A model generated the notes under the pieces. It saw nothing but the letters and a program-made list of their open reading frames with translations. It was not told the DNA's origin and did not search any database. Positions 1 to 25,397 of a stretch of 39,265 nucleotides of DNA are shown piece after piece. Position numbers and translations under genes: made by a program. Source of the DNA: Clostridia bacterium (GTDB taxonomy: Bacteria > Bacillota > Clostridia > Oscillospirales > CAG-272); NCBI GenBank assembly GCA_017451735.1, contig JAFTNU010000079.1:1-39265 (forward strand), read 5' to 3'. How positions within the stretch are numbered: the first letter of the stretch is position 1; every line of letters starts with the position of its first letter.

Positions 1-1026
1 ATCTTCGGTATGTGCTATATCATCACCCTTGAGGACGGTTCCTTCCTTATCTTTGACGGTGGTAAGGGCGGTGAGCTCTGCGATTACAGTGAAGTGTGGA
101 AGATATTGGAGAGCCTTTACAAGTCCATGCCGGGCAGAGAGGAAGGCCCCACTAAGGATGATCCTATCCATATCAGCGGATGGATCCTGACCCATGGACA
201 CGGCGACCATTACAATACGGTCGTTCAGTTCCTCAAGAATTACGGTAAGAGCGGTAAGCTGAAGGTTGATACGCTCTTTGCCAACTATGCTTCCGATACC
301 GAGCTGGTCAACGTATATAACCCCAACACCTATACTCAGGATAATCTCACATCGATTCAGGGCTATGTCAATGGCGGCTTTGACTACGTTAAGGTACATA
401 CCGGTCAGGTCTTCTATATTGCAAATGCAAAGCTTGAGGTGCTTTACACGCATGAGGACATCTATCCTCAAAGACTGGAGTACTTCAACAATACCAGTAC
501 CATCTTCCGTATCACCACGGAGAATACCGAGGACCGCGGAATGACTCTGTCCCGTGCATCCGGTGTATGGTTGGGTGACCTGGAGCGTATCGGCAGCAAG
601 TGTCTGCGCGCCATGTGGGGAACCTCGCTGTCGGGTGCAAGTTATGCCGCCACTTACGGCGACGGTAAGACACTGACCCAGATGGTTCAGGTTGCTCACC
701 ACGGTTATAACGGTGTTGAGGCGGCTCTCTATAATTTGATCGAGGCCGAGGTTGTTTGGGCTCCGACCAACCAGTATATGTCCAGTGGTAAGACCAGATA
801 CCAGAACAGCTTCTGCAATTCCACCAGCACCAACTACAGTGTGCAGGCCAACTATGCAGCCGCGCACGGTGTCAACGTCAAAATGTTTATTTTGGCGGAT
901 AAGTGGCACACCACTTTGAAATTCTCCGGTAGCGGCCCGCTTTATGATGATATGTTTGATGCCGTTACCAATGAGGCTGCCATCCCGGATGGAGTCTACA
1001 TCGTCGATTCCCGCTCGGCAGCATAA
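1..1026 (+). CDS. MBL-fold lipoprotein paralogue A, 5'-truncated by window edge
   Basis: The reading frame is open from base 1, and its first residues (IFGMCYIITLEDGSF) align with internal positions of the three downstream paralogues, so this is the C-terminal catalytic part of a longer protein rather than a gene starting at the ATG at base 10. It carries the metallo-beta-lactamase signature T-H-G-H-G-D-H (first His codon 193-195), a later W-L-G-D-L-E-R segment and V-A-H-H-G, in the order and style of ComEC-type MBL domains. These residues would bind a di-metal centre. The substrate is unknown. By analogy with B and C the missing N-terminus should hold a lipoprotein signal and accessory domains. 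Fourteen bases after the stop lies a UUCG hairpin, then paralogue B. The family assignment is good; the biochemical role is not known. Confidence 0.85.
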   Translation: MFGMCYIITLEDGSFLIFDGGKGGELCDYSEVWKILESLYKSMPGREEGPTKDDPIHISGWILTHGHGDHYNTVVQFLKNYGKSGKLKVDTLFANYASDTELVNVYNPNTYTQDNLTSIQGYVNGGFDYVKVHTGQVFYIANAKLEVLYTHEDIYPQRLEYFNNTSTIFRITTENTEDRGMTLSRASGVWLGDLERIGSKCLRAMWGTSLSGASYAATYGDGKTLTQMVQVAHHGYNGVEAALYNLIEAEVVWAPTNQYMSSGKTRYQNSFCNSTSTNYSVQANYAAAHGVNVKMFILADKWHTTLKFSGSGPLYDDMFDAVTNEAAIPDGVYIVDSRSAA

Positions 1027-1039
1027 CCGTTTTGCTTCC

Positions 1040-1065
1040 AAGTGCCGCACTTCGGTGCGGCGCTT
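1040..1065 (+). other. Intercistronic UUCG-tetraloop hairpin between paralogues A and B
   Basis: An 11-bp stem (1040-1050 with 1055-1065, one G.U pair) closes a C(UUCG)G tetraloop at 1051-1054, an unusually stable RNA hairpin. No T-run follows; the next bases are the ribosome binding site of paralogue B. It is therefore more likely an mRNA stabilising, processing or partial attenuation element than a full intrinsic terminator. I see no sigma-A promoter between A and B, so the two may be cotranscribed. Confidence 0.6.
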
Positions 1066-1086
1066 GCAGTAAGAGAGGAGAATTTT

Positions 1087-3489
1087 ATGAAGAGAATTAT
1101 CAGTGTATTGCTGTGCATGATCACGGTGTTTTCCTGTGTCACTCTTTTGACATCTTGCTCCAAAGGGGATGGGACCGAACCCCAAGTATCCGGAAAGACG
1201 ATTGACATCAATATTACCGATTATACCGTTGTCTACGGTTCCGAGCTGACAACGGGCGGAAAACAGCAGGTCGTCAACATGACCCAGATGATCAAGATGT
1301 TGACCTCTGTGTCCATGCGTACCCAGCAGGATAACGAATCCGAAGAGGTGCAGACCGAGGACCTTGAGATCCTGATCGGGCAGACCAGCCGCACAGAAAC
1401 CGCCAAGGCCCTAAAAAGCATTAAGGGGGCCGGCTGGACGGTTCGCGTGTTCGACAACAAGCTTGTCATTGCGGGTACCACCCCCTTTCTGACCCGCACG
1501 GCACTATCCTGGTTTACCGAAAATTATCTGACTGCCGAAAAGGCCAAGGACTCCACACTGTCGGTGAACAAAAAAGTGGTGCTTTCCAATATCGAAACCA
1601 TTTCTTTGACCAAGCTTGTGGATGGTACGGAGCAGGGACAATACATAGTTGTTTACGATGATTCGGTAGACGATAAGGTCAATAGCAAAAACTATCAGAT
1701 CGATACGAATCCTCCCGGAGGCTCCGCCACCGACTACATTTATGATTTAAGTAAAAATGTTCAGTCCTTGCTTTCCTCCACCACCAAGGCAAAAGCATCC
1801 ACTTTTCCTTTTAAGGTTGCTTCCACAGAGGCAAGCGATTACGAGATCCTGGTTGGCTCCATGAATCGCGCAGAAATGCGTGAGGAAAGAAGCAAGCTGC
1901 AGGTGAACGAGTATGCCGTTGCTATTCGCAACGGAAAAATCATGCTTGTGGCTTGGAACGATGTAACCCTTGCTTCTACTTACGCACTGTTTGAGGATCT
2001 GCTCAAGGGCTGTGCCGTGGTAGACGAGGAAGGAAATACCACATACATGATTCCCGCCAATGCCCGGATCAAGGATCAGATCGCAACAGATTGGGTCATT
2101 GATTTTCCCAAACCCGAGGGCGAAAATATCTCTCTTGACGGCACTGTGGATGTATATAACAATTCCATTGAGTATATTTACAGTGGTAGCGGTGTGAACA
2201 GAGAGTCTTATGTGGCGTACTGTGAAAAGCTGGAAGCCGCAGGCTTTGGACTACTTGCAGCCGAGACCCAATGGGCGGGCAGCAGCTTCCGTACTTATCT
2301 TAACGAAGAGACAGGCGTGACTCTCCATGTTTATCATGCCGCCTATACCCATGCCGCAGAGCAGAATGTAACGGATGTCATCAACAGCATTCGCATTGTG
2401 GCTGCCACAACCGATGATGTGACGGTACCCGATGCCGAGATACTTACCCGACAATCCTACGATGTTGTTACCGATTCCATGATCACCGCCGTGGACTTGG
2501 ATTATCAATACGGCGAGAGTGCCAACTTTGGCTTGGCTCAGATCATCACCCTTGCCGATGGCTCGTTTATTATCGTTGATGGCGGACAGGGAAGTTTGAC
2601 TGATGACGAGACCAATCTGTGGGGTGTGCTGAATAATCTTTATAAGAAGATCTACGGTGAAGATGCAACGCCCTCCAAGGAAAAGCCTATTTATGTCAGA
2701 GGATGGATCATCACGCATGATCACGGTGATCATTACGGCGTATTTACCAAGTTTGTAAAGAAATACGGTAGCAATGAAAAGTTCAAAATGGACTATCTGT
2801 TCTTCAATAGCGCCTCGGACAGTGAACTGTACAACTCCGAAAATCCCGGCTATACCGTTCGGAAAAACATGAATTCCTTGCAGAGTGCCGTGACAGGCGG
2901 CTTCAAGTATATCAAGGTGCACACCGGTCAGGTGTTTTACCTTGCCAACTGCCGGCTGGAGGTGCTTTACACACATGAGGATATTTATCCCAGAAAGGTC
3001 GAGTATTTCAACAATACCACTACCGTCATCCGTACGGTCCTGATCGAGACCGACGGCAGTAAAACCTACGAATCGGGTTGCGTGTGGTTGGGCGATGTGG
3101 AGCGTATCGGCAGTAGCCGTATGCGCGCTATGTACGGTGACTTCATGCAGACGGAGATGGTGCAGGTTGCTCATCACGCTTCCAACGGTGCGGAATCGGC
3201 ATTGTATGATCTTATTGCGCCCTCGGTGGTCTGGTTGCCCACCGATAAGGGTAGATATCAGAGTATGTGTGTCAATCAGCCCAGTAGCTCCAAGGACTGG
3301 AGGTATCATGTGGATTATAAGCTTTGCCAACAGACCGCGTCGGTCAAGATGATCGTCGTGGCCGATGTGTACGATACCACTTTGCCCATCACGGCAGATG
3401 GCCCGCAGTATGACCGGATGTTCAACGCCAATGACGGCAAATCGGTCGGCCCCGACAATATAGTGATTATCGATAAGAGAACCAATTGA
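1087..3489 (+). CDS. Secreted MBL-fold lipoprotein, paralogue B
   Basis: An 800-residue predicted lipoprotein. ATG 1087 is chosen because it follows an AGAGAGGAG ribosome binding site and begins a signal peptide (MKRIISVLL...) with lipobox L21-T-S-C24; the in-frame GTG at 1042 lies in the upstream hairpin. After the lipobox come two related alpha/beta domains (roughly residues 38-165 and 190-330). Both contain an 'EILxGxxxR' stretch and a 'xxxKxxxxxW/FTxxxL' end, resembling GH20b/alpha-glucuronidase N-like accessory domains. A conserved block with TYLNEETGVTLHVYH follows (about 345-470), then the MBL domain with H544-D-H546-G-D548-H549, D670 and H696-H697. The second half of the last motif is A-H-H-A rather than the A-H-H-G seen in A, C and D. 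It is probably an extracytoplasmic, membrane-anchored metallohydrolase; the substrate is unknown, and nothing nearby fixes it. Confidence 0.88.
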   Translation: MKRIISVLLCMITVFSCVTLLTSCSKGDGTEPQVSGKTIDINITDYTVVYGSELTTGGKQQVVNMTQMIKMLTSVSMRTQQDNESEEVQTEDLEILIGQTSRTETAKALKSIKGAGWTVRVFDNKLVIAGTTPFLTRTALSWFTENYLTAEKAKDSTLSVNKKVVLSNIETISLTKLVDGTEQGQYIVVYDDSVDDKVNSKNYQIDTNPPGGSATDYIYDLSKNVQSLLSSTTKAKASTFPFKVASTEASDYEILVGSMNRAEMREERSKLQVNEYAVAIRNGKIMLVAWNDVTLASTYALFEDLLKGCAVVDEEGNTTYMIPANARIKDQIATDWVIDFPKPEGENISLDGTVDVYNNSIEYIYSGSGVNRESYVAYCEKLEAAGFGLLAAETQWAGSSFRTYLNEETGVTLHVYHAAYTHAAEQNVTDVINSIRIVAATTDDVTVPDAEILTRQSYDVVTDSMITAVDLDYQYGESANFGLAQIITLADGSFIIVDGGQGSLTDDETNLWGVLNNLYKKIYGEDATPSKEKPIYVRGWIITHDHGDHYGVFTKFVKKYGSNEKFKMDYLFFNSASDSELYNSENPGYTVRKNMNSLQSAVTGGFKYIKVHTGQVFYLANCRLEVLYTHEDIYPRKVEYFNNTTTVIRTVLIETDGSKTYESGCVWLGDVERIGSSRMRAMYGDFMQTEMVQVAHHASNGAESALYDLIAPSVVWLPTDKGRYQSMCVNQPSSSKDWRYHVDYKLCQQTASVKMIVVADVYDTTLPITADGPQYDRMFNANDGKSVGPDNIVIIDKRTN

Positions 3490-3584
3490 GAGACCGATAC
3501 GGGAGATTTATAAGGTAGACCACACGCTCTGTCAAGCGGGACATGACCCTCGGTATAGAGAGGCCGGCCTTTAAACTTAAAAAA

Positions 3585-3617
3585 CCGTCAATCCCATCGG
3601 CGTGAAGGGATTGACGG
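3585..3617. terminator. Hairpin between paralogues B and C
   Basis: A perfect 11-bp stem (3585-3595 with 3607-3617) closes an 11-base loop. The A-run lies on its left (3579-3584), so the U-tract expected of an intrinsic terminator appears only for minus-strand transcripts; on the plus strand the stem is followed by CATCAAAAATAAT. It could block antisense transcription into B or act as a weak or processing hairpin for B mRNA. The 168-base B-C gap also contains the 10-bp palindrome AGGCCGGCCT at 3561-3570. Confidence 0.55.
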
Positions 3618-3657
3618 CATCAAAAATAATTTGGATTAAGCCCAAAGGAGTTTTATC

Positions 3658-6069
3658 ATGAAAAGAATCATCAGTATATTGCTCTGCCTTGTTATGGTGC
3701 TTTCCTCGGTCACACTTCTGGCATCCTGCTCGAAGAGTGGGGAAGGAGAGCCCAAGGTCAGCAAAAAACAGATCGCGGTCGATCTGACCGACTATGTCGT
3801 GGTTTGCGGCAGTGAATTAAATAGTGACTATAAACAGGCGGTGGTAAATTTTGCCGCCCGCTTGAAAGCCTTAACCTCCGTTTCACTGCGCACCCAGACC
3901 GACTCCGAGAGTGAGGCGGTAGAGACCGAGGACCTGGAAATTCTGGTGGGACAGACCAACCGCGTTGAAACACAGAAGGCTCTGAAGGCTACCGGCGATC
4001 TCGGCTGGGCCGTTCAGGTTTTCGATAACAAAATCGTTATTGTCGGTACCACACCTTTTCTGACCCGTGCGGCTCTCAGCTGGTTCACGGAAAATTGCAT
4101 CGAGAACGGCACAATCAGCGGCACGACCATTTCTGTATACAAAAAGGCTGTTGTGAAAGATCTGGAGACTGTGGCACTGACTGCCGACGGTATGGGTCGT
4201 TACACCATTGTGTATAGCCACAATGTGGATGACGTGGTCAACTCCACGCACTATGCCAGTGACTCCAATCCCGTCAGTGGCGGTAACGCGACAGATTATA
4301 TTTACGATACCTGCGGTAATATCCAGACTTTGCTTGGCGCCAATACCGATGCAAAGGGTACAACATTCCCCTTCAAGGAGGATACCACCGAGGCGAGCGG
4401 CCCCGAGATTCTGGTGGGCCAGTCTGATCGCGAATTGATGAAGAATGAGCTCAGCACCATGAATGCCAATGAATATGCCGTTGCCATTCGTGACGGGAAT
4501 ATTCTGATTGCTGCCTGGAACGATACAGCACTGACTTCTGCCGTGGCGCTTTTTGAGGGAATGATCAAAGGCTCTACCATCCAGGACGAGGAAGGAAATT
4601 CCACTCTGCTGATTCCTGCCAACTGTGCGGTAAAAGAGACGGTGAACAACGGTTGGACCGTTGATTTTCCCAAGCCAGACGGGGCTGATATCACCCTGCA
4701 CGGCACGGTGGATGTAAACGATAATTCGATCGAGTATATTTATACCGGCTCCGGTGTCAACAGAGAGTCCTATGTGGCGTACTGCGAGAAGCTGGAGGCC
4801 GCAGGCTTCAAGACCATTACAACCGAGAATCAGGTGGAGGGGAACAGCTTCCGTACCTACCTCAACGAAGAGACCGGCGTGACCCTGCATGTTTATCATG
4901 TGGCTTATACCCATTACGATGAATACAAAGAGACCCATAAGCTGGAATATTACGGTGATACCCTTGCCAGCATCCGCATCGTGGCATCCAGCACCGACTA
5001 TGTAACTCTGCCCGACGATGAAATGCTGAATCCCAATCAGCAGTATACCTGGATAACCTCTCCCATGATCACCCAAAGCAAGCTGGACGGTGAATCCGAT
5101 GGCGGTATGTCTTATATCGTTACTCTGGCCGACGGTAGCTTTATACTCTTTGACGGTGGCTACAAATTTACCAACAGCCACAAGGAACTGTGGGATATGT
5201 TGGTGGCTCTGTATAAGGAGAGTCATGACGGCAACGATCCCAGCTCTGCCGATCCTATCCGTATCAGAGCATGGGTCATGACCCATGAGCATCAGGACCA
5301 TTTTGGTACCTTCCTGCAATTCGTTCAGAATTACGGCCAGAATACTGCCGTAAAGCTGGAGCGCCTCCTGTTTAACTCGACCTCTACAAGCGAGCGTTAC
5401 AACTGCCACAACCCCGAGAATACCGTGCAAGCCAGCTTCGAAAGCCTTCAGTCCCGGGTGAATGGTGGCTTCAAGATCATCAAGATGCACACCGGCCAGA
5501 TCTACTATTTTGCTAATATGAAGATGGAGGTTCTCTATACCCATGAGGATGCTTATCCCAAGGGCTTGGAGTATTTCAACAACAGTACCACCGTTGTGCG
5601 GACCACGTTATCCGCTTTGAACGGAAAGAGCGATACCGCCACCTCCACTTGCATTTGGCTGGGTGACGCCGAGCGTATTGTCAGCCGCAGATTGATCGCT
5701 ATGTACGGCGATACATTGGATGTGGATCAAGTCCAGGTGGCTCACCACGGCCATACGGGCGTTTACTATGAATTGTACGAGGTCATGTCTCCCGAGGTGC
5801 TTTGGTGGCCGACCCGTTTCAGCGCCTTCAAGAACCGTATTTCCAGCGAAAATTCCAAGACCTGGTACTATCGTGTGAATTACAAGCTGGTTCGTAATAT
5901 CGCATCGGTTAAGCTGATCCTGGTGGCCGATACCTATGATACCACCATGACCATCACCGGAAAAGCCAGCGATTATGAGGATGCCAATTTGTTTGACTTG
6001 GTTAAGGGGAAAGAAATTACTTCCACGACCTCGCTGACAGGCGGCGTGATCATTCACAAGGTTTCATAA
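3658..6069 (+). CDS. Secreted MBL-fold lipoprotein, paralogue C
   Basis: 803 residues, starting at an ATG about six bases after an AAAGGAG site. The signal peptide is nearly identical to that of B, with lipobox L21-A-S-C24, so the mature protein should be a lipid-anchored exported protein. The architecture matches B: two tandem glycosidase-accessory-like domains, a conserved TYLNEETGVTLHVYH block, and an MBL domain with H543-E-H545-Q-D547-H548, D670 and H696-H697-G. The segment before D670 (LSALNGKSDT...STCIWLGD) is shared with D and absent from A and B, so C and D are the closest pair. A strong terminator follows at 6082-6113. The fold is clear; the reaction and substrate are not identified. 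Confidence 0.88.
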   Translation: MKRIISILLCLVMVLSSVTLLASCSKSGEGEPKVSKKQIAVDLTDYVVVCGSELNSDYKQAVVNFAARLKALTSVSLRTQTDSESEAVETEDLEILVGQTNRVETQKALKATGDLGWAVQVFDNKIVIVGTTPFLTRAALSWFTENCIENGTISGTTISVYKKAVVKDLETVALTADGMGRYTIVYSHNVDDVVNSTHYASDSNPVSGGNATDYIYDTCGNIQTLLGANTDAKGTTFPFKEDTTEASGPEILVGQSDRELMKNELSTMNANEYAVAIRDGNILIAAWNDTALTSAVALFEGMIKGSTIQDEEGNSTLLIPANCAVKETVNNGWTVDFPKPDGADITLHGTVDVNDNSIEYIYTGSGVNRESYVAYCEKLEAAGFKTITTENQVEGNSFRTYLNEETGVTLHVYHVAYTHYDEYKETHKLEYYGDTLASIRIVASSTDYVTLPDDEMLNPNQQYTWITSPMITQSKLDGESDGGMSYIVTLADGSFILFDGGYKFTNSHKELWDMLVALYKESHDGNDPSSADPIRIRAWVMTHEHQDHFGTFLQFVQNYGQNTAVKLERLLFNSTSTSERYNCHNPENTVQASFESLQSRVNGGFKIIKMHTGQIYYFANMKMEVLYTHEDAYPKGLEYFNNSTTVVRTTLSALNGKSDTATSTCIWLGDAERIVSRRLIAMYGDTLDVDQVQVAHHGHTGVYYELYEVMSPEVLWWPTRFSAFKNRISSENSKTWYYRVNYKLVRNIASVKLILVADTYDTTMTITGKASDYEDANLFDLVKGKEITSTTSLTGGVIIHKVS

Positions 6070-6081
6070 TTTAAACGATCC

Positions 6082-6113
6082 AAAGAGGAGATGCTATGCA
6101 TCTCCTCTTTTCT
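6082..6113 (+). terminator. Intrinsic terminator after paralogue C
   Basis: A perfect 13-bp stem (6082-6094 with 6098-6110), a TAT loop and a TTTTCT tail, starting 12 bases after the stop codon of C. The ATG at 6091 lies inside this hairpin, which argues against reading it as the start of the next gene. Confidence 0.85.
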
Positions 6114-6117
6114 GCGC

Positions 6118-6146
6118 TTGACATTCATGCGATTTAGTGTTAAAAT
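6118..6146 (+). promoter_or_regulatory. Sigma-A promoter for paralogue D
   Basis: TTGACA (6118-6123), 17 bases, then TAAAAT (6141-6146): a full-consensus -35 and a 5/6 -10 element. The predicted transcript begins around 6153, only about 26 bases before the ATG at 6179. Together with the terminator just upstream this makes D an independent transcription unit. Confidence 0.8.
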
Positions 6147-6178
6147 GAAAGCAACAAATCTTGCAAAGGAGAACGGTG

Positions 6179-8688
6179 ATGAAAAGAGTAGTCAGCCTTT
6201 TACTGTGTCTTGCTACACTACTGTCCGCTGTCACGCTTCTGGCTTCCTGTGCCAAAAACGAGGGGACGGCATCAACCCATTGCTCAGCAAGAAAGTGTTG
6301 AGCTTGGACCTGACCGATTACACCATTGTCTACGCCTCCGATCTGACAACAGGTGGCAAACAGCAGGCAGTGGATTTTGCCAAGTCGCTGAAAACCGCAA
6401 CCGGCCTTGCTTTGCGCTCTCGGGTCGATACCGAGACTGCGTATGTAGAGACCGAAGATCTCGAGATCCTGATCGGTAATACAGGGAGAAAAGAAACCGA
6501 AAAGGCTTTGAGCAAGGTGAACGGAACCGGTTGGACGGTTCGTGTGTTTGATCATAAGCTGGTCATTGTGGGCACCACGCCTTTTTTGACTCGCGTGGCA
6601 TTGAATTGGTTTACCCAAACCTATCTTACTGCCGATCATGCAAGCGAGCATACTTTGTCTGTCCATCAAAGCGTTCTTCTTTCCAATATGGAGACCACCG
6701 CATTGACGGTGGACGGAGCAGGGCAATATGCCATCGTGTACGGCGACCGTGTAGACGATGTTTCCACCGATACGGCCTATTCGGCTGATGACAATCCTCA
6801 GGGCGGTATTGCCACCGACTACATTTACGATCTGAGCGTAGAGATTCAAAGTCTTTTGGCCGCTACCACGGGTGCCAAGAGCTCGACCTTCCCCTTTAAA
6901 GAGGAAGGAGCCGCCTCCACCAATACCGAATTGTTGGTGGGAAATATGGATCGTACCGAGATGCGCGAGGAGCTGGCAAAGATCGAGGCAGATGAATATG
7001 CCATCACCGTGCGCGACAGCAAGATCATGCTGGTTGCTTGGAACGATGCTACCCTGAAATCCACCTATACTTTGTTGGAGGATATGCTCAAGGGCTGTGC
7101 TGTTACGGATGAGAACGGAAAGACCTCCTATCTTATTCCGGCCAACTGCACCGTGAAAGAAAATGCAGGGAATGATTGGGTCACCGATTTTCCAAAGCCT
7201 ACGGGGGAGAATATTGCTCTTGACGGTACCGTTGAGGTTGCCGACAACTCTATTGAATATGTTTACAGTGGAAGCGGTGTAACCAGAGAGTCCTATGTGG
7301 CGTACTGCCAAACCCTTGAGGCAGCGGGCTTCAAGACCCTTGCTGCCGAGAATCAAACGCAGGGCAGTAGTTTCCGTACTTATCTCAATGAGGGGACGGG
7401 TGTTACCTTGCATGTATATCATGTGGCCTATGCCCATGCCGAGGCGCAGAAAGTGACCGATGTACTGGCCAGCATCCGTATTGTGGCCTCTACCACCGAA
7501 GATGTGAATCTTCCCGATGCCGAGATGCTGACCCCAAATCAGGAATATGAGTGGAAGACCGCTCCCCGGATCACTCAGTTGCAGTTGCTGGATAGCACGA
7601 CCGTAAACAGCGCGGGAGAAATACTGAAGAACTTCGGTATGTCTTATCTCATTACCTTGGCCGATGGAAGCTTTATTATGTATGACGGCGGCATCGGCCG
7701 TGCGGATGACGCCACCAATTTGTGGAACGTCATGTCCACCATTCATGAGGAGATTTCCGGTGCCGAGGTCAGTATCAAAAATCCGATCCGAATTCGGGCA
7801 TGGGTCATGACCCATGAGCACAGCGACCATTTTACCGTGTTCAGAAAGTTCTGCAAGGAGTATGGCCCCTCGGGTAAATTGATCTTTGAGCGCTTGCTTG
7901 CCAATTACACCTCGGATACCGAGCGTTATAACTGTCACAATCCCGAAAATACGGTGCAGTTGAATATGGCGACCTTGCAGAGTCAGGCCGGATTCAAGTA
8001 TATCAAGGTTCACACAGGGCAGGTATTCTATTTTGCCAACCTCAAGATGGAGGTTCTTTACACGCATGAGGATATTTATCCCAAGCGTCTGGAATACTTC
8101 AACAACAGTACCACCATCGTTCGCACTACGCTGTCCGCTTTGAATGGGAAGAGCGATACCAAGACCTCTACCTGCATCTGGCTTGGAGATGCGGAGCGCA
8201 TTGCCAGCCGCAGATTGCGTGCTATGTATGGTACTTCTCTGGATGTGGATCAGGTCCAGGTGGCTCATCACGGTCATACAGGTGTGGAATGGAGTCTTTA
8301 TGAGATCATGTCGCCCGATGTGCTCTGGTGGCCCACCAACTGCGCCGATTTCCGCGGTTACATCAATAAAAACACAAGCTCTCGTGCACATGCCGACACC
8401 TATGAAGGATGTCAGGGCAGCACCTGTACCTCTACCGCACCTTGGTATTACTGTGTTGACTATCATCTGGCCTACTCTCTGGATAGTGTGAAGCTGATTT
8501 GTGTAGCCGCTCTTTATAACACCACCATGGTCATCACCGGCAATGAATCCGACTATGTTAATCTGAAAAATATTGCCGACCCGGATAAAAGCACCATCGT
8601 ATACACCAAATATTACAACGGTGAGGTTATTCGTCCTTCCAAAGCCACCAATCAGAATACCGTTATTTTGAAGCAGGAGATCAAATAA
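6179..8688 (+). CDS. MBL-fold lipoprotein paralogue D, frameshifted after the lipobox
   Basis: The true start is ATG 6179, seven bases after an AAAGGAG site and downstream of the promoter at 6118. It encodes MKRVVSLLLCLATLL... with lipobox L-A-S-C, as in B and C, but this frame stops soon after, at about 6300. The rest of the protein (from about 6266, then LLSKKVLSLDLTDYTIVYASDL onward) is in another frame that is open from 6091 to 8688. Restoring one base in the GGGG run at 6262-6265 would join them into a smooth 836-residue lipoprotein. The body keeps the two accessory-like domains, the TYLNEGTGVTLHVYH block and the MBL motif T-H-E-H-S-D-H (first His codon 7813-7815), W-L-G-D and V-A-H-H-G. 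It also has a four-cysteine stretch near 8320-8460 not seen in the other copies. As written, the long frame would make a protein with no export signal. This is a sequencing or assembly error, a recent inactivation, or phase variation. Confidence 0.8.
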
Positions 8689-8691
8689 TAC

Positions 8692-8730
8692 AACAAGGGC
8701 GGGAGATGCATGCATCTCCCGCCCTTGTTT
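8692..8730. terminator. Bidirectional terminator between paralogue D and pantothenate kinase
   Basis: A perfect 19-bp inverted repeat (8692-8710 with 8711-8729) lies between two convergent genes, three bases after the stop of D and eleven before the end of the minus-strand kinase gene. Both flanks are moderately T/A-rich, so it can terminate either transcript. Confidence 0.8.
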
Positions 8731-8740
8731 GGTGGATGAA

Positions 8741-9595
8741 TTACTTATCGGTGGGGCATAGCGCCGCGCCGATGACGGTACCGTACTGAGCGTTTTCGGG
8801 AATGATAAAGCGAATCCCGAAATTCCGCTCCATCACACCGAATACGTGGCGAATGGGGGCAATGGTGGTCAGATTACCGGTCAATACCACCCGATCCAGC
8901 TTGAAGTTCCGTGCCGCAAAAACGGCCATCATACCAATGGTCTCGGCTACCATGTTGACGATACCGAGGGCGATGTCGTGCTTGTTGGCCAGATCACTGA
9001 GCTTGCCAAAGTTAGAGGCGGTCAACTCATAGTTGACACCGGGGTAGATGTTTTTTGCCGAAATATCACGGATGCGCAGATCCACATTGGAAAGATCTCC
9101 CCCCTCGCAAAGCTGTTCGATATGCTCCACCGTGTCTACTCCCAGCATTTTACGTGAAATGCCGATCAGCGTGCCGCCGCCAACGCCCGTACCGCCCAGA
9201 TATTCGATTTCGGTACCGCCGTTTTGATGCTTGGCATGGATCAGTGCCGTACCGGTGCCCATACTGACCACGACAGCCTCGTCCAGGTCGGAAAGATAAA
9301 GACCACCCAGCCCCACGCTGTTGAACTCGGGCACGGTGCGGCAATCCAGCCCTTCGTAAAGGGGACGGTCAAGAAAGGCGGAGCCCGCTCCCGTTACCAT
9401 TACACGTTCAATGTCCGAGAGTGCCAATCCGTTTTGCATGGTGAATTTTCCGAACGCGCCGTAAATAGAGGTCAGGGGATCGGTTGCACGGACGCATTGA
9501 GGCTCGATCAGTACCCGATTGCCGCTTTTCTCGCGAAAACCGACAATTTTGGTGGTACTGCCACCCACATCAATGCCAAGAACGGCTTTTCCCAT
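8741..9595 (-). CDS. coaW: Type II pantothenate kinase
   Basis: 284 residues. It is predicted to phosphorylate pantothenate with ATP, the first step of coenzyme A synthesis, in the cytosol. The N-terminal phosphate-binding loop GIDVGGSTTKIVGF, the later MGTGTALI and the glycine-rich LGGTGVGGGTLIG are characteristic of the type II (fumble/CoaW) branch of the ASKHA superfamily. The length fits that family. The start is supported by an AAGGAG site eight bases upstream and by a promoter at 9633-9661. It is divergent from a HAD phosphatase gene. Type II enzymes are typically insensitive to CoA feedback (known for the staphylococcal enzyme, inferred here). A BadF/BcrA-like ATPase role is less likely given the motifs. 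Confidence 0.85.
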   Translation of the reverse strand: MGKAVLGIDVGGSTTKIVGFREKSGNRVLIEPQCVRATDPLTSIYGAFGKFTMQNGLALSDIERVMVTGAGSAFLDRPLYEGLDCRTVPEFNSVGLGGLYLSDLDEAVVVSMGTGTALIHAKHQNGGTEIEYLGGTGVGGGTLIGISRKMLGVDTVEHIEQLCEGGDLSNVDLRIRDISAKNIYPGVNYELTASNFGKLSDLANKHDIALGIVNMVAETIGMMAVFAARNFKLDRVVLTGNLTTIAPIRHVFGVMERNFGIRFIIPENAQYGTVIGAALCPTDK

Positions 9596-19690: not shown

Positions 19691-20320
19691 ATGATGAACT
19701 GTACGTGTTATGTAGAAAAAAGTGAAAAAAAGCCGCTTGCCTTAAAGCTGGCAAAATTGATTCGCGCGCTGACGGTGCCGCCCATTATGGTGGGTACGCT
19801 CTTGCTGATCCTGTTTTTCTGTGACGATGTTTTTCCCAGCGCTCTTGATTTTGGACTGTCTCTCGCTTTTCTGGCGATCGTGCCCAGCCTTGCTTATGTG
19901 GCGCAAAAGCTGTTGCCCGCCTGGAGAGAAGGGGGACAAAAGGCTCAGCGCAAGCTGGCGTTCGTGTTCAGCTTCGTGGGCTATACGGGTGCGGTGATCT
20001 GCAGTGCTCTGCGCGGTGCTGTGCCCAATCTGCTTTATATCTCACTGGTTTATTTGGTGTCGGTGGTGATCCTGACACTCATCAACTGTCTCACACCTTG
20101 GCACGCCAGCGGGCATGGGTGTAGCTTGATGGGTCCCATCCTTCTGACCTGTCTTTTCGTGGGCTGGTATGCTGTTCCCGCAGGCATTGTGGTATATTGT
20201 GCATCTCTTTGGGCGTCGGTGTATATGAAGCGCCATACCGTGCGTGAATTTTTTCTTGGCTCGCTTTCTGCCATTCTTGCGGCATTCGTCTGCTATTTTA
20301 TCGTCCATCCAATCTTTTAA
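19691..20320 (+). CDS. PAP2-like integral membrane protein
   Basis: 209 residues with about six hydrophobic segments, the last ending at the C-terminus. AAGGAGG lies five bases before ATG 19691 and eight before ATG 19694; either may be used. The sequence W-H-A-S-G-H-G followed about 40 residues later by a membrane-proximal R-H-T-V-R-E-F resembles motifs 2 and 3 of the PAP2 phosphatase superfamily (PSGH and SRxxxxxHxxxD). The first position of motif 2 is changed, Glu stands where Asp is expected, and no clear motif 1 is visible. It may act on a lipid phosphate such as an undecaprenyl or phosphatidyl intermediate, or be a catalytically altered relative. Confidence 0.65.
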   Translation: MMNCTCYVEKSEKKPLALKLAKLIRALTVPPIMVGTLLLILFFCDDVFPSALDFGLSLAFLAIVPSLAYVAQKLLPAWREGGQKAQRKLAFVFSFVGYTGAVICSALRGAVPNLLYISLVYLVSVVILTLINCLTPWHASGHGCSLMGPILLTCLFVGWYAVPAGIVVYCASLWASVYMKRHTVREFFLGSLSAILAAFVCYFIVHPIF

Positions 20321-20328
20321 ATAAGCGT

Positions 20329-20357
20329 AAGCGGCGTATTGTTACGGTACGCCGCTT
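20329..20357 (+). terminator. Hairpin after PAP2-like gene
   Basis: A perfect 10-bp stem (20329-20338 with 20348-20357) with a nine-base loop, just before the next promoter. The tail CTGTCATATT is only weakly T-rich, so termination efficiency is uncertain. Confidence 0.6.
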
Positions 20358-20365
20358 CTGTCATA

Positions 20366-20394
20366 TTGACATATACAGCGGAAGGATGTATAAT
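20366..20394 (+). promoter_or_regulatory. Perfect-consensus sigma-A promoter
   Basis: TTGACA (20366-20371), exactly 17 bases, TATAAT (20389-20394). Both hexamers match the consensus fully, the strongest promoter in the window by sequence. It drives a 118-residue unknown membrane protein. Confidence 0.88.
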
Positions 20395-20416
20395 GTATTT
20401 GTAAGGAGCTGATGAA

Positions 20417-20773
20417 ATGAAAAAAGCAATTTTTGCAATTCTTTCGATCCTGATTGTATTTTTAGTTCTTCCACTTTACGTGGATCATGCCTGTAGCCCT
20501 GCCGGCAAGGAAGGGTGGTATTTCACCATGTTTTTGATGATCGATCCGATCTTTGTGGCGCTTCTCGGTATTTTCGCGGGTAGTGACTTGAAACGGCTGT
20601 GGTTTGCACCTGTGTTGGGAGCGCTGATATTTGCGCCCGGCTTTTGGCTTTCAACTTTGGCGGTCGATACGTCGGTTTTGGTCTATGCACCCATTTATCT
20701 GGTGATCGGCGCTGTTGCCATGGGAATCTCCGAGCTCTTTTTTGACCGTACCGCAAAAAAGAAAACCGAATAA
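20417..20773 (+). CDS. Small membrane protein of unknown function, 4 TM
   Basis: 118 residues, family not recognised. Four hydrophobic segments span most of the length (about 4-24, 34-56, 62-82 and 86-108), with a short charged C-terminal tail rich in Lys (DRTAKKKTE). AAGGAG sits eight bases before the ATG. It is a single-gene unit with a perfect-consensus promoter and its own terminator, so it is probably strongly and constitutively transcribed. No cysteine, histidine or other catalytic pattern suggests an enzyme; a membrane stress, immunity or small-transport role would be speculation. Confidence 0.75.
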   Translation: MKKAIFAILSILIVFLVLPLYVDHACSPAGKEGWYFTMFLMIDPIFVALLGIFAGSDLKRLWFAPVLGALIFAPGFWLSTLAVDTSVLVYAPIYLVIGAVAMGISELFFDRTAKKKTE

Positions 20774-20777
20774 CAGG

Positions 20778-20815
20778 GAGCGCGTTCGTCGGACGCGCTC
20801 TCTTACTTTTTGGGC
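20778..20815 (+). terminator. Intrinsic terminator after small membrane protein gene
   Basis: A 10-bp stem with one G.U pair (20778-20787 with 20791-20800), GTC loop and a TCTTACTTTTT tail. Confidence 0.8.
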
Positions 20816-20882
20816 TTTAACCCTGTCGCTTCAAAGCGCATAATCTGTGGGTAGAAGTCTTTTTTGTCGAAAGGGGACTGCC

Positions 20883-21116
20883 ATGGATTCTGTTTTGCGC
20901 CTTTGCGACATCGCGCCGGGAGAGAAGTGCACCGTTTCGGGCTTGACCGCCACGGGCGCCATGCGCCGCCGCTTGTTGGATATCGGCTTGGTGGAGCATA
21001 CGCCTGTTTATTGTATTGGCAAAAGCCCCGGCGGGGACCCTTCCGCCTATCTCATTTGCGGTGCCGTCATTGCCATTCGTGCCGCCGATGCCGCCACCGT
21101 TTTGGTGGAGAGGTGA
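20883..21116 (+). CDS. feoA: FeoA-family protein
   Basis: 77 residues forming a single SH3-like FeoA domain (LCDIAPGEKCTVSGL...GAMRRRLLDIGLVEHTPV...). FeoA proteins are small cytosolic partners thought to modulate the FeoB iron channel. ATG 20883 follows AAGGGG by six bases; an upstream in-frame start at 20847 has no good ribosome binding site. The feoB gene begins six bases after the stop. No Fur- or DtxR-type box could be recognised upstream, and the only promoter candidate (CATAAT near 20840) is weak. Confidence 0.88.
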   Translation: MDSVLRLCDIAPGEKCTVSGLTATGAMRRRLLDIGLVEHTPVYCIGKSPGGDPSAYLICGAVIAIRAADAATVLVER

Positions 21117-21122
21117 CGGAGC

Positions 21123-23267
21123 ATGGGGCTAACCTTTCGCTCCACGGGGACGGGAGCGCTTGATTCGGGGCTTGAGATCAAAAAACGGAGCGAGAGTGAC
21201 CTTGTGATCGCCCTTGCGGGGAATCCCAACGTGGGGAAAAGCACGGTGTTTAATGCGCTGACAGGATTGCACCAGCACACGGGGAACTGGCCCGGCAAGA
21301 CCGTTGCCAATGCCCAGGGCTATGCCGAGGCGGCGGGACAGGGCTTCGTGCTGGTGGATATTCCCGGTACCTATTCGCTGATGGCGCACTCTGCCGAGGA
21401 GGAGGTCGCCCGCAATTTTATCTGCTTCGGTGCGCCCGATGTCGTTGCGGTGGTCTGCGACGCCACCTGCCTTGAGCGTAATCTCAATCTGGTTTTGCAG
21501 GTTATCGAGATCTGCCCCCGCACCGTGGTCTGTGTCAATCTCATGGACGAGGCAAGGCGAAAGGGCATCACTCTTGATCTCGATCTGCTTTCCGCCCGTC
21601 TCGGCGTGCCCGTTCTGGGCACGGTGGCGCGCCGTAAAAAGACCTTATCTCATCTGCTTTCCACCCTTGCCGAGGCGGCGAGGGCACCGTCAAGTGAGGT
21701 TCTGCAGGTGCGGTATGATGCCCCCGTGGAGCAGGCAATCTCCTTAGTGGAAGCCGCTCTTGTGGGGCGAGATCTGCGCGCGCTGAAGCCGCGCTTTCTT
21801 GCCTTGAAGCTCCTGGATGCCGATCCCTCGCTGCAAGCCGAGCTTACCGCCTATCTTGGGGAGAATTTTGTGGATGAAGCCCTTGACGACGCGCTGACCC
21901 AAGCTCGCGATCTGCTGGCGGCATCGGGCTTGGATGCCGAAGCCCTCCGCGACAGCGTTGTGTCCTCTCTGTCCCGCACTGCCGGGGAAGTGATAGCGGG
22001 TGCTGTCACCCGTCGGACCGATCCCCGCCAGGAGACCGACCGCAGGCTGGATCGGCTTCTGACGGGGCGTTGGACGGCATATCCCTTTATGCTATTCCTG
22101 CTGGTGGGCGTCTTTTTTATCACCATCATCGGCGCCAATTATCCCTCGGAATGGCTGTCAAGGCTGTTTTCCGTCCTTGGCGGATGGCTGAAGGCGGGGC
22201 TTGTGCATGTCGGCGTACCCCCGTGGCTTACGGGGCTTTTGATGGACGGTATCTATCTGGTGCTCACCTCGGTGATCGCGGTGATGCTACCCCCCATGGC
22301 GATCTTTTTTCCGCTCTTTACGCTGCTGGAGGACATTGGCTATCTGCCGCGCATCGCCTACAACCTGGATCGCCCCTTTTGCCGTTGCAGGGCGTGCGGC
22401 AAGCAGTCCCTGACCATGTGCATGGGTTTCGGCTGTAACGCTGCAGGGGTGGTGGGATGCCGCATCATCGACTCACCGCGGGAGCGGCTCCTTGCCATTC
22501 TCACCAACAGCTTTGCCCCCTGCAACGGGCGCTTTCCCACCTTTATTACGGTGCTGACCGTCTTTTTTGCGGGGAGTGCCGTAGGCGCGGTGGGTACGCT
22601 GCGGGTGGCGCTTTTGCTGACCGCGCTGATCCTGCTCGGCGTTCTTGTAACCTTCGGTGCCACGCGGCTCCTTTCTGCCACCCTGTTAAGAGGCGCGCCC
22701 TCCTCCTTTACGCTGGAGCTCCCCCCCTATCGCCCGCCCCAGGTGGGTAAAATTTTGGTGCGCTCGATCCTTGACCGCACCCTCTTTGTCCTCGGCCGTG
22801 CCGCGGCGGTGGCGGCGCCTGCAGGTGCGATTCTGTATCTGCTTGCCAATGTCAGGGCAGGGGATCTGACCCTTCTTGCCCACGCCGCAGGCTTTCTTGA
22901 TCCCGTGGGACACCTGATCGGCTTGGACGGCTCCATCCTGCTCGGGTTTATTCTCGGCTTTCCCGCCAATGAGATCGTTTTACCCATCGTTCTGATGGTC
23001 TACACGGCACAGGGCACCATGCCCGCCCTTGGCGGCATTGCCGAGATCGGCGCCACGCTGACGGCAAACGGCTGGACGGCAGTCACCGCGGTCTGCTTTC
23101 TCCTGTTTTCCCTGATGCATTGGCCCTGCTCTACCACGGTTCTGACCGTGAAAAAGGAAACGGGCAGATGGGGCTGGACGGCAGTCTCCGTTCTCCTGCC
23201 CACCCTTTTTGGCGTCCTCGCCTGCGCCCTTGTCAACGGTGTGGCACATCTGTTCGGTATGGCCTGA
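21123..23267 (+). CDS. feoB: Ferrous iron transporter FeoB
   Basis: 714 residues. The N-terminal G domain has G1 GNPNVGKS (33-40), a G2 Thr in NWPGKTVA, G3 DIPGTYSL and G4 NLMD; a helical regulatory region follows, then a polytopic membrane domain from about residue 310 to the end with two gate regions. FeoB imports Fe(II) across the cytoplasmic membrane with GTP-dependent gating. The first gate region is cysteine-rich (FCRCRACGKQ, MCMGFGCNAAGVVGC, FAPCNGRF), a form different from the E. coli-type LSGKAF...GFxCxVPA sequence. The ribosome binding site GGAGAGG lies inside the feoA 3' end, nine bases from the ATG, so feoA and feoB are coupled. Confidence 0.93.
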   Translation: MGLTFRSTGTGALDSGLEIKKRSESDLVIALAGNPNVGKSTVFNALTGLHQHTGNWPGKTVANAQGYAEAAGQGFVLVDIPGTYSLMAHSAEEEVARNFICFGAPDVVAVVCDATCLERNLNLVLQVIEICPRTVVCVNLMDEARRKGITLDLDLLSARLGVPVLGTVARRKKTLSHLLSTLAEAARAPSSEVLQVRYDAPVEQAISLVEAALVGRDLRALKPRFLALKLLDADPSLQAELTAYLGENFVDEALDDALTQARDLLAASGLDAEALRDSVVSSLSRTAGEVIAGAVTRRTDPRQETDRRLDRLLTGRWTAYPFMLFLLVGVFFITIIGANYPSEWLSRLFSVLGGWLKAGLVHVGVPPWLTGLLMDGIYLVLTSVIAVMLPPMAIFFPLFTLLEDIGYLPRIAYNLDRPFCRCRACGKQSLTMCMGFGCNAAGVVGCRIIDSPRERLLAILTNSFAPCNGRFPTFITVLTVFFAGSAVGAVGTLRVALLLTALILLGVLVTFGATRLLSATLLRGAPSSFTLELPPYRPPQVGKILVRSILDRTLFVLGRAAAVAAPAGAILYLLANVRAGDLTLLAHAAGFLDPVGHLIGLDGSILLGFILGFPANEIVLPIVLMVYTAQGTMPALGGIAEIGATLTANGWTAVTAVCFLLFSLMHWPCSTTVLTVKKETGRWGWTAVSVLLPTLFGVLACALVNGVAHLFGMA

Positions 23268-23307
23268 TTTTATGTGAGCGGTTTGTCATACAACGTCAAA
23301 TGAAGGT

Positions 23308-23346
23308 AAGATTTTTGCCATCAAAAGCCATCAAAATCTTTCTTTT
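23308..23346 (+). terminator. Probable terminator after feoB with a 10-bp tandem repeat in the loop
   Basis: AAGATTTT (23308-23315) pairs with AAAATCTT (23333-23340) and is followed by TCTTTTT. The loop and distal arm hold two perfect tandem copies of GCCATCAAAA (23317-23326, 23327-23336). The stem is AT-rich, so terminator strength is uncertain. Confidence 0.45.
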
Positions 23347-23352
23347 TCCGCC

Positions 23353-23381
23353 TTTACTTTTAAAATGTATTGTGATATACT
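23353..23381 (+). promoter_or_regulatory. Promoter for uvrB-uvrA-methyltransferase operon
   Basis: TTTACT (23353-23358), a 17-base spacer ending in the TGTGA context, and TATACT (23376-23381). I looked for a Gram-positive LexA box (GAAC-N4-GTTC) in 23268-23423 and found none. Confidence 0.6.
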
Positions 23382-23423
23382 AAATATGTATATGCAAAAG
23401 CAGGGAAAGGGAGGAAAAAGGCG

Positions 23424-25397
23424 ATGCTTGACGGAAAATTCCAATTGAAAAGCCCCTTCAGGCCCACGGGCGATCAGCCTCAGGCGATCGAGGCACTTTG
23501 TCAGGGGCTGAACGCGGGTATGCGGTATCAGACGCTTCTTGGTGTCACGGGCTCGGGCAAGACCTTTACTATGGCAAACGTCATCGAGCGCATGAACCGT
23601 CCCACCCTCATTTTAGAGCCCAACAAGACCTTGGCGGCACAGCTTTGCTCTGAGATGCGGGAATTCTTTCCCGATGCCGCCGTTGAGTTTTTCGTTTCCT
23701 ACTACGACTACTATCAGCCCGAGGCGTATATACCCGGCAAGGATATGTATATCGAAAAGGATGCTTCCATCAACGACGAGATCGACCGCCTGCGCCATTC
23801 CGCTACCGCCGCCCTGTTGGAGCGGCGGGACGTGATCATTGTGGCAAGCGTCTCCTGCATTTACTCGCTGGGCGACCCCGAGGACTATAAAAATCTCATG
23901 ATCAACCTGCGCCCCGGCATGGAAATGAGCCGTGATGTGCTCATCCGCCGTCTGGTTTCGATCCAGTACGAGCGCAGTGACCTGAACTTCGTCCGTGATA
24001 AGTTCCGCGTGCGCGGAGACACGGTCGATATCTATCCCGCAGGCTTCGGCGATACCGCCGTCCGCGTGGAATTCTTCGGGGACGAGATCGACCGCATCAC
24101 CGAATTCCGTGTGGTCACGGGGCAGATCCTGCGCGAGCTGCGCTATTTCGGTGTCTTTCCCGCCACCCACTACGCCGTTTCAGACGAAAAGCGCGAGACG
24201 GCGCTGGCGCAAATCGGCGCCGAAATGCTGGATCGCGTGGCATTCTTCAAGGAAGAAAACAAGCTGATCGAGGCACAGCGCATCGAGGAGCGTGTCAAAT
24301 ACGATCTGGAGATGCTCCGCGAGGTGGGCTACTGCTCCGGCGTCGAGAACTATTCCCGCGTTTTGGCGGGCAGACCTGCAGGCTCCACGCCCTATACCTT
24401 GCTGGACTTTTTCCCCGAGGATTATCTGATGATCGTAGACGAGTCCCACGTCATGCTCCCGCAGGTGCGGGGCATGAGCGGCGGCGACACCGCCCGTAAG
24501 AAGAATCTGGTGGATTTCGGCTTCCGTCTCCCCTCGGCATACGATAACCGTCCCCTGTATTTCCATGAATTTGAGGAGCGGGTGGGGCAGGCGATCCTGG
24601 TCAGCGCCACCCCCGCCGATTTTGAAAAGGAGCACTCCGAGCAGGTGGTAGAGCAGATCATCCGTCCCACCGGGCTCCTTGACCCCGAGGTGGAGGTGCG
24701 TCCCATCGAGGGACAGGTGGACGACCTGTTGGGCGAGATCCGCACCCGCGCCGCCAAAAACGAGCGTGTGCTGGTGACGACCTTAACCAAGCAGATGGCG
24801 GAGGATTTGACGTCTTATTTGGAAGAAAACGGTGTCCGCGTGCGCTACATTCACTTCAACGTAGAGACCATGGAGCGTATGGAGATCATCCGCGACCTGC
24901 GTCTTGGCAATTTTGATGTGCTGGTGGGCATCAATTTGTTGCGCGAGGGGCTGGATCTCCCGGAGGTCTCTTTGGTTGCCATTCTGGATGCCGATAAAGA
25001 GGGCTTTTTGCGCACCGAAACCTCGCTGATCCAGACCATCGGGCGCGCCGCCCGAAATGCTGAGGGCAAGGTCATCATGTACGCCGACAGCATCACAAGA
25101 TCCATGGAAAAAGCAATTGGCGAGACCAACCGCCGCCGCAAGATACAGGATGCCTACAACAAAGCAAACGGTATTACGCCGACCACCATCGTCAAGGGCG
25201 TTCACGATATCATCGAGATCGGTAAGGCGGCAGACGAGGCGGCATCGAAGAAGGGCAAGGAAAAGCTGACGCCCACCGCAAGAAAGAAGCTGATCGACAC
25301 GTTAACCTCCGAGATGAAGGAGGCTGCCAAAAAGCTGGAATTCGAGCAGGCGGCATTCCTGCGTGATAAGATCAAACAACTCAGAGAAGAAAAGTAA
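23424..25397 (+). CDS. uvrB: Excinuclease ABC subunit B
   Basis: 657 residues, normal length. UvrB is the DNA-loading helicase-like subunit of nucleotide excision repair that receives damaged DNA from UvrA and recruits UvrC. Walker A is GVTGSGKT (40-47), the damage-probing beta-hairpin is [12 protein letters not shown], the DEAD-like box is D339-E-S-H342, motif VI is QTIGRAARN, and a C-terminal UVR motif ([20 protein letters not shown]) is the UvrC-contact region. After the DESH box the usual V-T-I-P is V-M-L-P here, a minor variation. AAAGGGAGG precedes the ATG. uvrA follows after eight bases. Confidence 0.96.

Follow-up and report, generated by a model that had tools for sequence, protein, structure and literature searches.

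An array of MBL-fold lipoproteins carrying a tandem GH20b-like module varies in copy number between coaW and alaS in gut Clostridia and may belong to a surface phosphoester-degrading system

We analysed contig JAFTNU010000079.1 (C68) of Clostridia bacterium assembly GCA_017451735.1 (G000; 2.37 Mb in 81 contigs) over its entire 39,265 nucleotides, hereafter the window. At its left end lies an array of four neighbouring same-strand genes for putative lipoproteins that share a C-terminal layout ending in a metallo-beta-lactamase (MBL) domain. Gene 2 (1087..3489, +) encodes a lipoprotein signal, two tandem domains, a linker domain and the MBL domain, and gene 3 (3658..6069, +) repeats this layout. 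On the same strand of gene 3, tandem domain 1 lies at 3769..4191 (residues 38-178), tandem domain 2 at 4195..4632 (residues 180-325), the linker domain with its TYLNEETGVTLHVYH block at 4630..5037 (bounds approximate), and the MBL domain at 5020..6066, with HEHQDH at residues 543-548, YTHED at 627-631, GD at 669-670 and HH at 696-697. Gene 2 shares 56-57% identity with genes 3 and 4 across about 775-787 residues, far above chance.

A sequence-only reading had described four tandem lipoprotein genes of one layout within the window. The four genes and their common C-terminal layout stand, with two corrections. Gene 1 lies in the window only as its last 341 residues, the MBL domain (1..1026, +); its signal peptide, lipobox and tandem domains make up the N-terminal half found at the end of contig C54 (L011:6631-8070), which shares an exact 35-base overlap with C68 at the window start, within gene 1. 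An in-frame lipobox is therefore present in three genes, one of them outside the window: by eye, genes 2 and 3, and gene 1 on C54, have a signal peptide and a lipobox Cys. The signal peptide and lipobox of gene 4 (6179..6301, +) start from ATG 6179, in a frame that meets a stop at 6301, and the homologous body is read in another frame (open frame 6091..8688, +; family homology from about 6211-6247), so either the gene is broken immediately past the lipobox or an error lies in the draft assembly at this point. Lipidation of the array proteins is predicted from the lipobox. The same genome holds a fifth, diverged MBL copy at L012:2445-4763 (G000:C3), about 36% identical and by eye without a signal peptide.

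The array is bounded on both sides. Upstream of it, C54 carries genes that we take from their sequences to be alaS (minus strand), ftsZ, murG and ftsW. Downstream lies a converging pantothenate-kinase-like gene (8741..9595, -), presumably coaW; it forms a conserved border of the locus and is separated from gene 4 by a 17-pair hairpin (8692..8729). Because alaS- and ftsZ-like genes lie upstream and the coaW-like gene downstream, the array ends at four genes. Examining the leftward extension thus ruled out a larger array continuing far in that direction, which had been thought possible.

The two N-terminal domains are related to each other, as had been proposed from the sequence. In hhalign they match with probability 99.5 and E 3.4e-22 over 98 columns, a comparison drawn from a 78-row alignment (A3) that combines every one of the 55 longer relatives with 21 of the 34 partial ones and two genes of the window, and in which 61 rows cover domain 1 and 67 cover domain 2. 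A profile of 13 GH20b domains from the genus gave a probability of 59.5 against domain 2 (E 9e-5, 37 columns) and of 20.6 against domain 1. Sister proteins that carry the module exceed Pfam cut-offs for Glyco_hydro_20b (C61b, 27.7 vs 26.1) and Glyco_hydro_67N (L240, 28.3 vs 24.3), and NAGLU_N gives weak matches in 3 of the 29 members of alignment A1 (best E 0.011); in the Pfam scan the window proteins themselves reach neither the Glyco_hydro_20b nor the Glyco_hydro_67N cut-off. This indirect evidence points to tandem domains of GH20b-like character. They are followed by the linker domain of about 120 residues, which holds a TYLNE(E/G)TGVTLHVYH block.

The tandem module is not confined to the array. 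In the same genome it is fused to an alkaline phosphatase (C78, E 2.1e-34) and, in two adjacent lipoprotein-like genes (L193:946-4666, G000:C61), to the endonuclease/exonuclease/phosphatase (EEP) domain Exo_endo_phos (E 8.9e-12 and 1.3e-5); on C31 and C37 it occurs without a catalytic Pfam match. Across 35 regions from the genus we counted 39 open frames with the module. Thirteen are alkaline phosphatase fusions, called at 45-68% identity to C78 with one checked in Pfam; eight are EEP fusions, five over the Pfam cut-off, one below it and two by homology alone; and six carry MBL domains. Another eight have the module only, called by similarity to C31 or C37 without a Pfam scan, and four are unassigned (three scanned in Pfam without a match, one unscanned). 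A catalytic domain was thus recognised in 27 of the 39, and all 27 are of phosphoesterase type if the MBL domain is counted as such. The EEP partners weakly resemble ExeM/NucH, exodeoxyribonuclease III and MnuA, all below cut-off.

Since proteins of the genus also join this module to alkaline phosphatase and EEP domains, the hint of a carbohydrate- or cell-wall-linked substrate, which the accessory domains had originally given, is weakened, and phosphoester substrates are indicated instead. We rejected a carbohydrate-only reading of the accessory domains on these partners. Larger MBL homologues carry fn3, Laminin_G_3, CBM_4_9, FIVAR and F5/8C domains over their Pfam cut-offs and a dockerin just below, and in a homologue from a Roseburia metagenome-assembled genome (MAG) a calcineurin-like phosphoesterase (49.8 bits vs a cut-off of 21.5) is joined to the MBL domain. 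Three further proteins of 723-734 residues (L241, L242 and L243) have a single module domain, with a large C-terminal part in which Pfam matches nothing; guessing from one sequence, this part is perhaps a beta-propeller.

Searched against PDB, the MBL profile had ComEC as its best match (9vc6, E 1.4e-10), bearing out the ComEC-like MBL domain read from the sequence. It also matched Pce/CbpE (12qj, E 1.7e-6; 2bib, E 2.3e-6) and, weakly, the thioesterase PqsE (E 0.0073). These searches returned remote relatives of the MBL part only; gene 2 alone and the tandem module gave nothing useful, and a single-protein scan of genome contigs found no relative. The window proteins scored below the cut-off of every Pfam and NCBIfam model. 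Pfam Lactamase_B stayed below its gathering score (15.4-21.3 vs 22.7 bits), matching 27 of the 29 members of A1 at E up to 0.1 (best 9e-10), NCBIfam ComEC_Rec2 scored 14.2 and 13.1 bits in genes 2 and 3 against a cut-off of 190.05, and 6A-MBL scored 11.8 bits in gene 4 against 220. In Pfam the window proteins have no match to a competence domain, and no separate membrane-helix prediction was made. The proposal of an undescribed system therefore holds in part: no family cut-off was reached and PDB offers remote MBL relatives only, but the catalytic domain is related to MBL phosphodiesterases already known. Literature searches aimed at the architecture returned no description of it among the best-ranked papers, judged on the openings of their abstracts.

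Two other roles for an MBL domain bear on these matches. The PqsE match and the sub-threshold Lactamase_B scores would suit a hydrolase of another class, such as a lactonase, thioesterase or beta-lactamase-like enzyme; ComEC and Pce are matched far better, however, and the recognised partners of the module belong to phosphoesterase families, so we hold this to be very unlikely. A weak PADLOC match to LmuA (gene 3, 5.9e-6; gene 2, 1.7e-4; gene 4, none) raises the idea of an anti-phage defence protein. It is limited to about 90 residues around HxHxDH, though, and the array proteins have export signals and stand beside alaS- and coaW-like genes (these neighbours were not scanned with PADLOC). We rejected a defence system because the LmuA match is partial only, and an anti-phage role seems to us extremely improbable. 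Elsewhere in the genome, two short MBL proteins (L194:354-1214, G000:C12; L195:3783-4787, G000:C15), by eye without a signal peptide, match LmuA and RTasMBL in PADLOC (E 1e-11 to 3e-15).

The MBL ligands HxHxDH, D and HH are complete in all four array genes, in agreement with the sequence-only reading, and are widely kept beyond them. HxHxDH, D670 and H697 are retained in 76 of the 78 rows of A3, the exceptions being L069, with three ligands lost, and L098, with HxDxDH; the second motif II ligand, H545, is His in 77 rows and Asp in one. Asn N641 is invariant (78/78) and falls in a block that aligns with the ND.S block of ComEC. It may correspond to motif III of ComEC, although Pce also shows Asn there in the same alignment. 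A family-specific EVLYTHED block lies between HxHxDH and GD/HH; in the four array copies on G005:C27 (L063) the YTHED block is altered in every copy and the metal ligands are retained. All ligands are kept in 31 of 32 array-family copies (27 array copies from seven genomes, together with the four array genes and the C3 copy of G000). Many named records in A3 are the same genes as copies in this second set, so the counts 76/78 and 31/32 are not independent. The sole locus copy of genome G016 (L167, G016:C7:19680-22019) has lost three ligands (HxHxDN, NN) and is likely a non-catalytic survivor; with the same contig and frame size, it and L069 appear to be one gene reached through two collections.

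The tandem GH20b-like domains and the MBL relatives together raise the possibility of Pce-type envelope-glycopolymer esterases, which would strip phospho-substituents from teichoic acids or phosphorylated capsules, the cell's own or its neighbours', with the array diversifying to match the glycopolymers. Pce/CbpE is the PDB relative whose alignment spans most of the MBL domain (profile 85-265), and it has HxHxDH in common with the array family; ComEC replaces one motif II His, according to PMC8579336, and the array family does not. The link of the tandem domains to GH20b/GH67N-type accessory domains and the CBM_4_9, Laminin_G_3 and F5/8C domains of larger homologues point the same way. Against this, the window proteins have no choline-binding or other cell-wall-binding Pfam match (nor do choline-binding repeats match in Pfam in the A1 members), and the EEP and alkaline phosphatase partners suit nucleic-acid or general phosphate scavenging equally or better. 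We regard esterases of this type as possible but doubtful.

Relatives of the array proteins are present in all 20 same-genus genomes. In 15 of these alaS and coaW lie on one contig, the pair being split over contigs in the other five, and all 15 intervals hold MBL lipoproteins. There are six copies in G004; five in G001 and G009; four in G005 and G018; three in G011; two in G003, G013, G014, G019 and G020; and one in G002, G010, G015 and G016. Among 17 genomes from other genera of the family, G066 has one copy at the locus, and G022, G025 and G052, from three genera, have an empty site in which coaW and alaS are adjacent (49 to 170 bases between matched ends). In G070 alaS and coaW diverge, with 4 kb between them and no MBL match; in the remaining 12 the two genes lie on separate contigs or at a long distance, or at least one of them was not found. 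In G038 an MBL lipoprotein (G038:C6:231-2387) lies directly beside alaS at a contig start and coaW starts another contig, so the locus may be filled there too. Because the array runs on the strand opposite to both of its neighbours, alaS and coaW, the simplest reading is that it was inserted into an older gene pair.

Array copies from other species share 32-66% identity with gene 3, compared with 79-90% for AlaS (full-length matches) and 72-88% for CoaW, each against the own-genome protein; neither half of gene 1, nor the C3 copy, enters the table of identities by domain. In a tree built on the MBL part, without the N-terminal half of gene 1, G000 genes 1, 2 and 3 pair with G004 copies 1, 2 and 5 as orthologues, and lineage-specific duplications account for the four copies of G005 (100/100), a pair in G020 and two pairs in G001. 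This mixture of orthologues and lineage-specific duplications suggests that the array evolves by birth and death. With one to six copies at a fixed locus and this level of identity to gene 3, the survey of related genomes agrees with the diversified family that had been proposed. Beyond the genus, an order-wide sample of 197 genomes gave MBL profile matches at E 1e-20 in 37, own genome included. Many of the 73 named loci are Clostridia MAGs from roe deer, water deer, goat or sheep caecum, colon or rumen; one is from Acetatifactor muris DSM 23669 and one from a Roseburia MAG. Shorter MBL relatives also stand in tandem, five at G223:C2:42872-49663 and four at G037:C20:56443-63077, with frames of roughly 500 and 590 residues; alaS is some 2 kb away from the G037 run.

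Divergence might itself be what is selected, in surface-variable proteins that escape phage, protists or host immunity and whose enzyme role is secondary. Lipoproteins clustered at one locus in varying number, the low identity of the copies relative to AlaS and CoaW, and the one array copy with ligands lost are consistent with this, as is a variable stretch at residues 720-749 of gene 3: in a scan of residues 330-779 by 15-residue stretches, variability was highest in 720-734 and 735-749, which follow the HH and WWPT motifs. Retention of ligands in nearly all copies argues the other way. Moreover, the sequence-only reading had the residues flanking the ligands diverging, and they proved more conserved, with a mean entropy of 1.50 bits at the 26 positions at most four residues from a ligand against 1.87 at the other 268 MBL positions (30 array copies from 8 genomes). 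Entropy in the tandem domains, at 1.96 and 2.12, is only a little higher than the 1.80 of the MBL domain. Selection for surface variation as the main role is thus improbable in our judgement.

Hairpins are visible by eye in all three gaps between array genes, at 1040..1065 (+; TTCG loop, no clear T run) between genes 1 and 2, at 3585..3617 (+) between genes 2 and 3, and at 6082..6110 (+; 13-base stem) between genes 3 and 4. A promoter-like TTGACA-17-TAAAAT lies 5' of gene 4 (6118..6146, +) and is weak by itself: 9700 bases contain 15 promoter-like sites against a mean of 11.5 in shuffles, and terminator-like sites are likewise near shuffle level (10 vs 8.4). The leader of gene 1 contains a stem-loop, CGGTATGT...ACATACCG, soon after a TATAAT box (L011:6562-6587). 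An Rfam scan of the window gave nothing at gathering score, and a known RNA element there was rejected on that result. Further along, window positions 20001-24000 show a strong negative AT skew (-0.19 to -0.23) over the long open frames 21123-23267 and 23424-25397.

Taken as they appear in sequence, the layout, ligands, relatives, partner domains, synteny and copy-number variation lead us to a reading of the array proteins as surface phosphodiesterases, to which we give about an even chance. The proteins would be exported and attached to the membrane through the lipobox Cys, gene 4 as assembled being broken at that point. The two related GH20b/GH67N-like domains would act as a spacer or binding module, followed by the small linker domain; the MBL domain, as the catalytic part, would cut phosphodiester bonds in an extracellular polymer. 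We infer this catalysis, and as substrate slightly favour extracellular nucleic acid over an envelope phosphopolymer. The MBL proteins would form one branch of a modular surface phosphoester-degrading set, and since MBL, EEP and alkaline phosphatase domains share the module, polymer, oligomer and phosphomonoester steps are all possible at the cell surface. The array would have arisen by insertion between coaW and alaS; its genes would then have been duplicated, lost and diversified, and a wider range of substrate or surface specificities would be the presumed benefit of this diversification.

Several points weigh against this reading. The motif II Asp of ComEC is absent, so nuclease chemistry does not follow directly. 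MBL folds also include lactonases, thioesterases and others, and the weak PqsE match is to a thioesterase. The G016 copy indicates that catalysis is not needed in every copy. The 35 regions behind the partner counts were chosen by hand and are not a random sample, most partner assignments rest on similarity to own-genome proteins and not on Pfam, and of the 39 module proteins four lack a recognised partner and eight lack any partner.

Tentatively, and at rather less than even confidence, we propose an undescribed modular surface phosphoester-degrading system of gut Clostridia, in which a GH20b-like lipoprotein module is swapped among MBL, alkaline phosphatase and EEP domains and the MBL branch occupies a genus-wide coaW-alaS hotspot that gains, loses and diversifies copies, yielding species-specific phosphodiesterase repertoires. 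If this is right, the sequence-defined family and its comparative system of one to six copies, empty sites and one ligand-lost copy would tie an MBL family to phosphoester chemistry and address the role of surface phosphodiesterases in uncultured gut Clostridia. The known uses of ComEC/Pce-like MBL domains, DNA uptake and teichoic acid editing, would then be joined by an expanded surface repertoire.

Among known systems, the extracellular and membrane nucleases ExeM/NucH and MnuA, working with alkaline phosphatase, offer a functional analogy in surface nucleic-acid breakdown; the array proteins are MBL and not EEP enzymes, and only the EEP partners resemble these nucleases, weakly and below NCBIfam cut-offs. 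Glyco_hydro_20b and Glyco_hydro_67N are matched in sister module proteins, and NAGLU_N weakly in A1 members, but in the array the module is in tandem and joined to phosphoesterase-type domains, not glycosidases.

Closer are the two MBL relatives. Pce is a modular surface MBL phosphodiesterase (PMC4929436, PMC7785958). Pce/CbpE, the pneumococcal teichoic acid phosphorylcholine esterase (2bib, 12qj, 1wra), shares HxHxDH with the array family, and its LYNYEN stretch aligns with LYTHED; it is held by a choline-binding module, whereas the array proteins have a lipobox and tandem GH20b-like domains, and the similarity is remote. The C-terminal domain of ComEC was shown in PMC8579336 to be a Mn-dependent phosphodiesterase and nuclease, and it differs from Pce by an Asp replacing one motif II His and an Asn in motif III. 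With this DNA-uptake nuclease (9vc6, 9vc9, 9vcb, 9vcf) the array family shares the Asn in the ND.S block, GD and HH; ComEC is an extracellular MBL phosphodiesterase, as the array proteins are predicted to be. The array family differs in having His and not Asp in motif II, tandem GH20b-like domains and a lipobox, and the motif II difference ruled out plain ComEC fragments. By sequence, then, the array family resembles both ComEC and Pce and falls within the tested definition of neither: the general enzyme type is known, and the architecture with its two-domain module, set in a variable array, looks undescribed.

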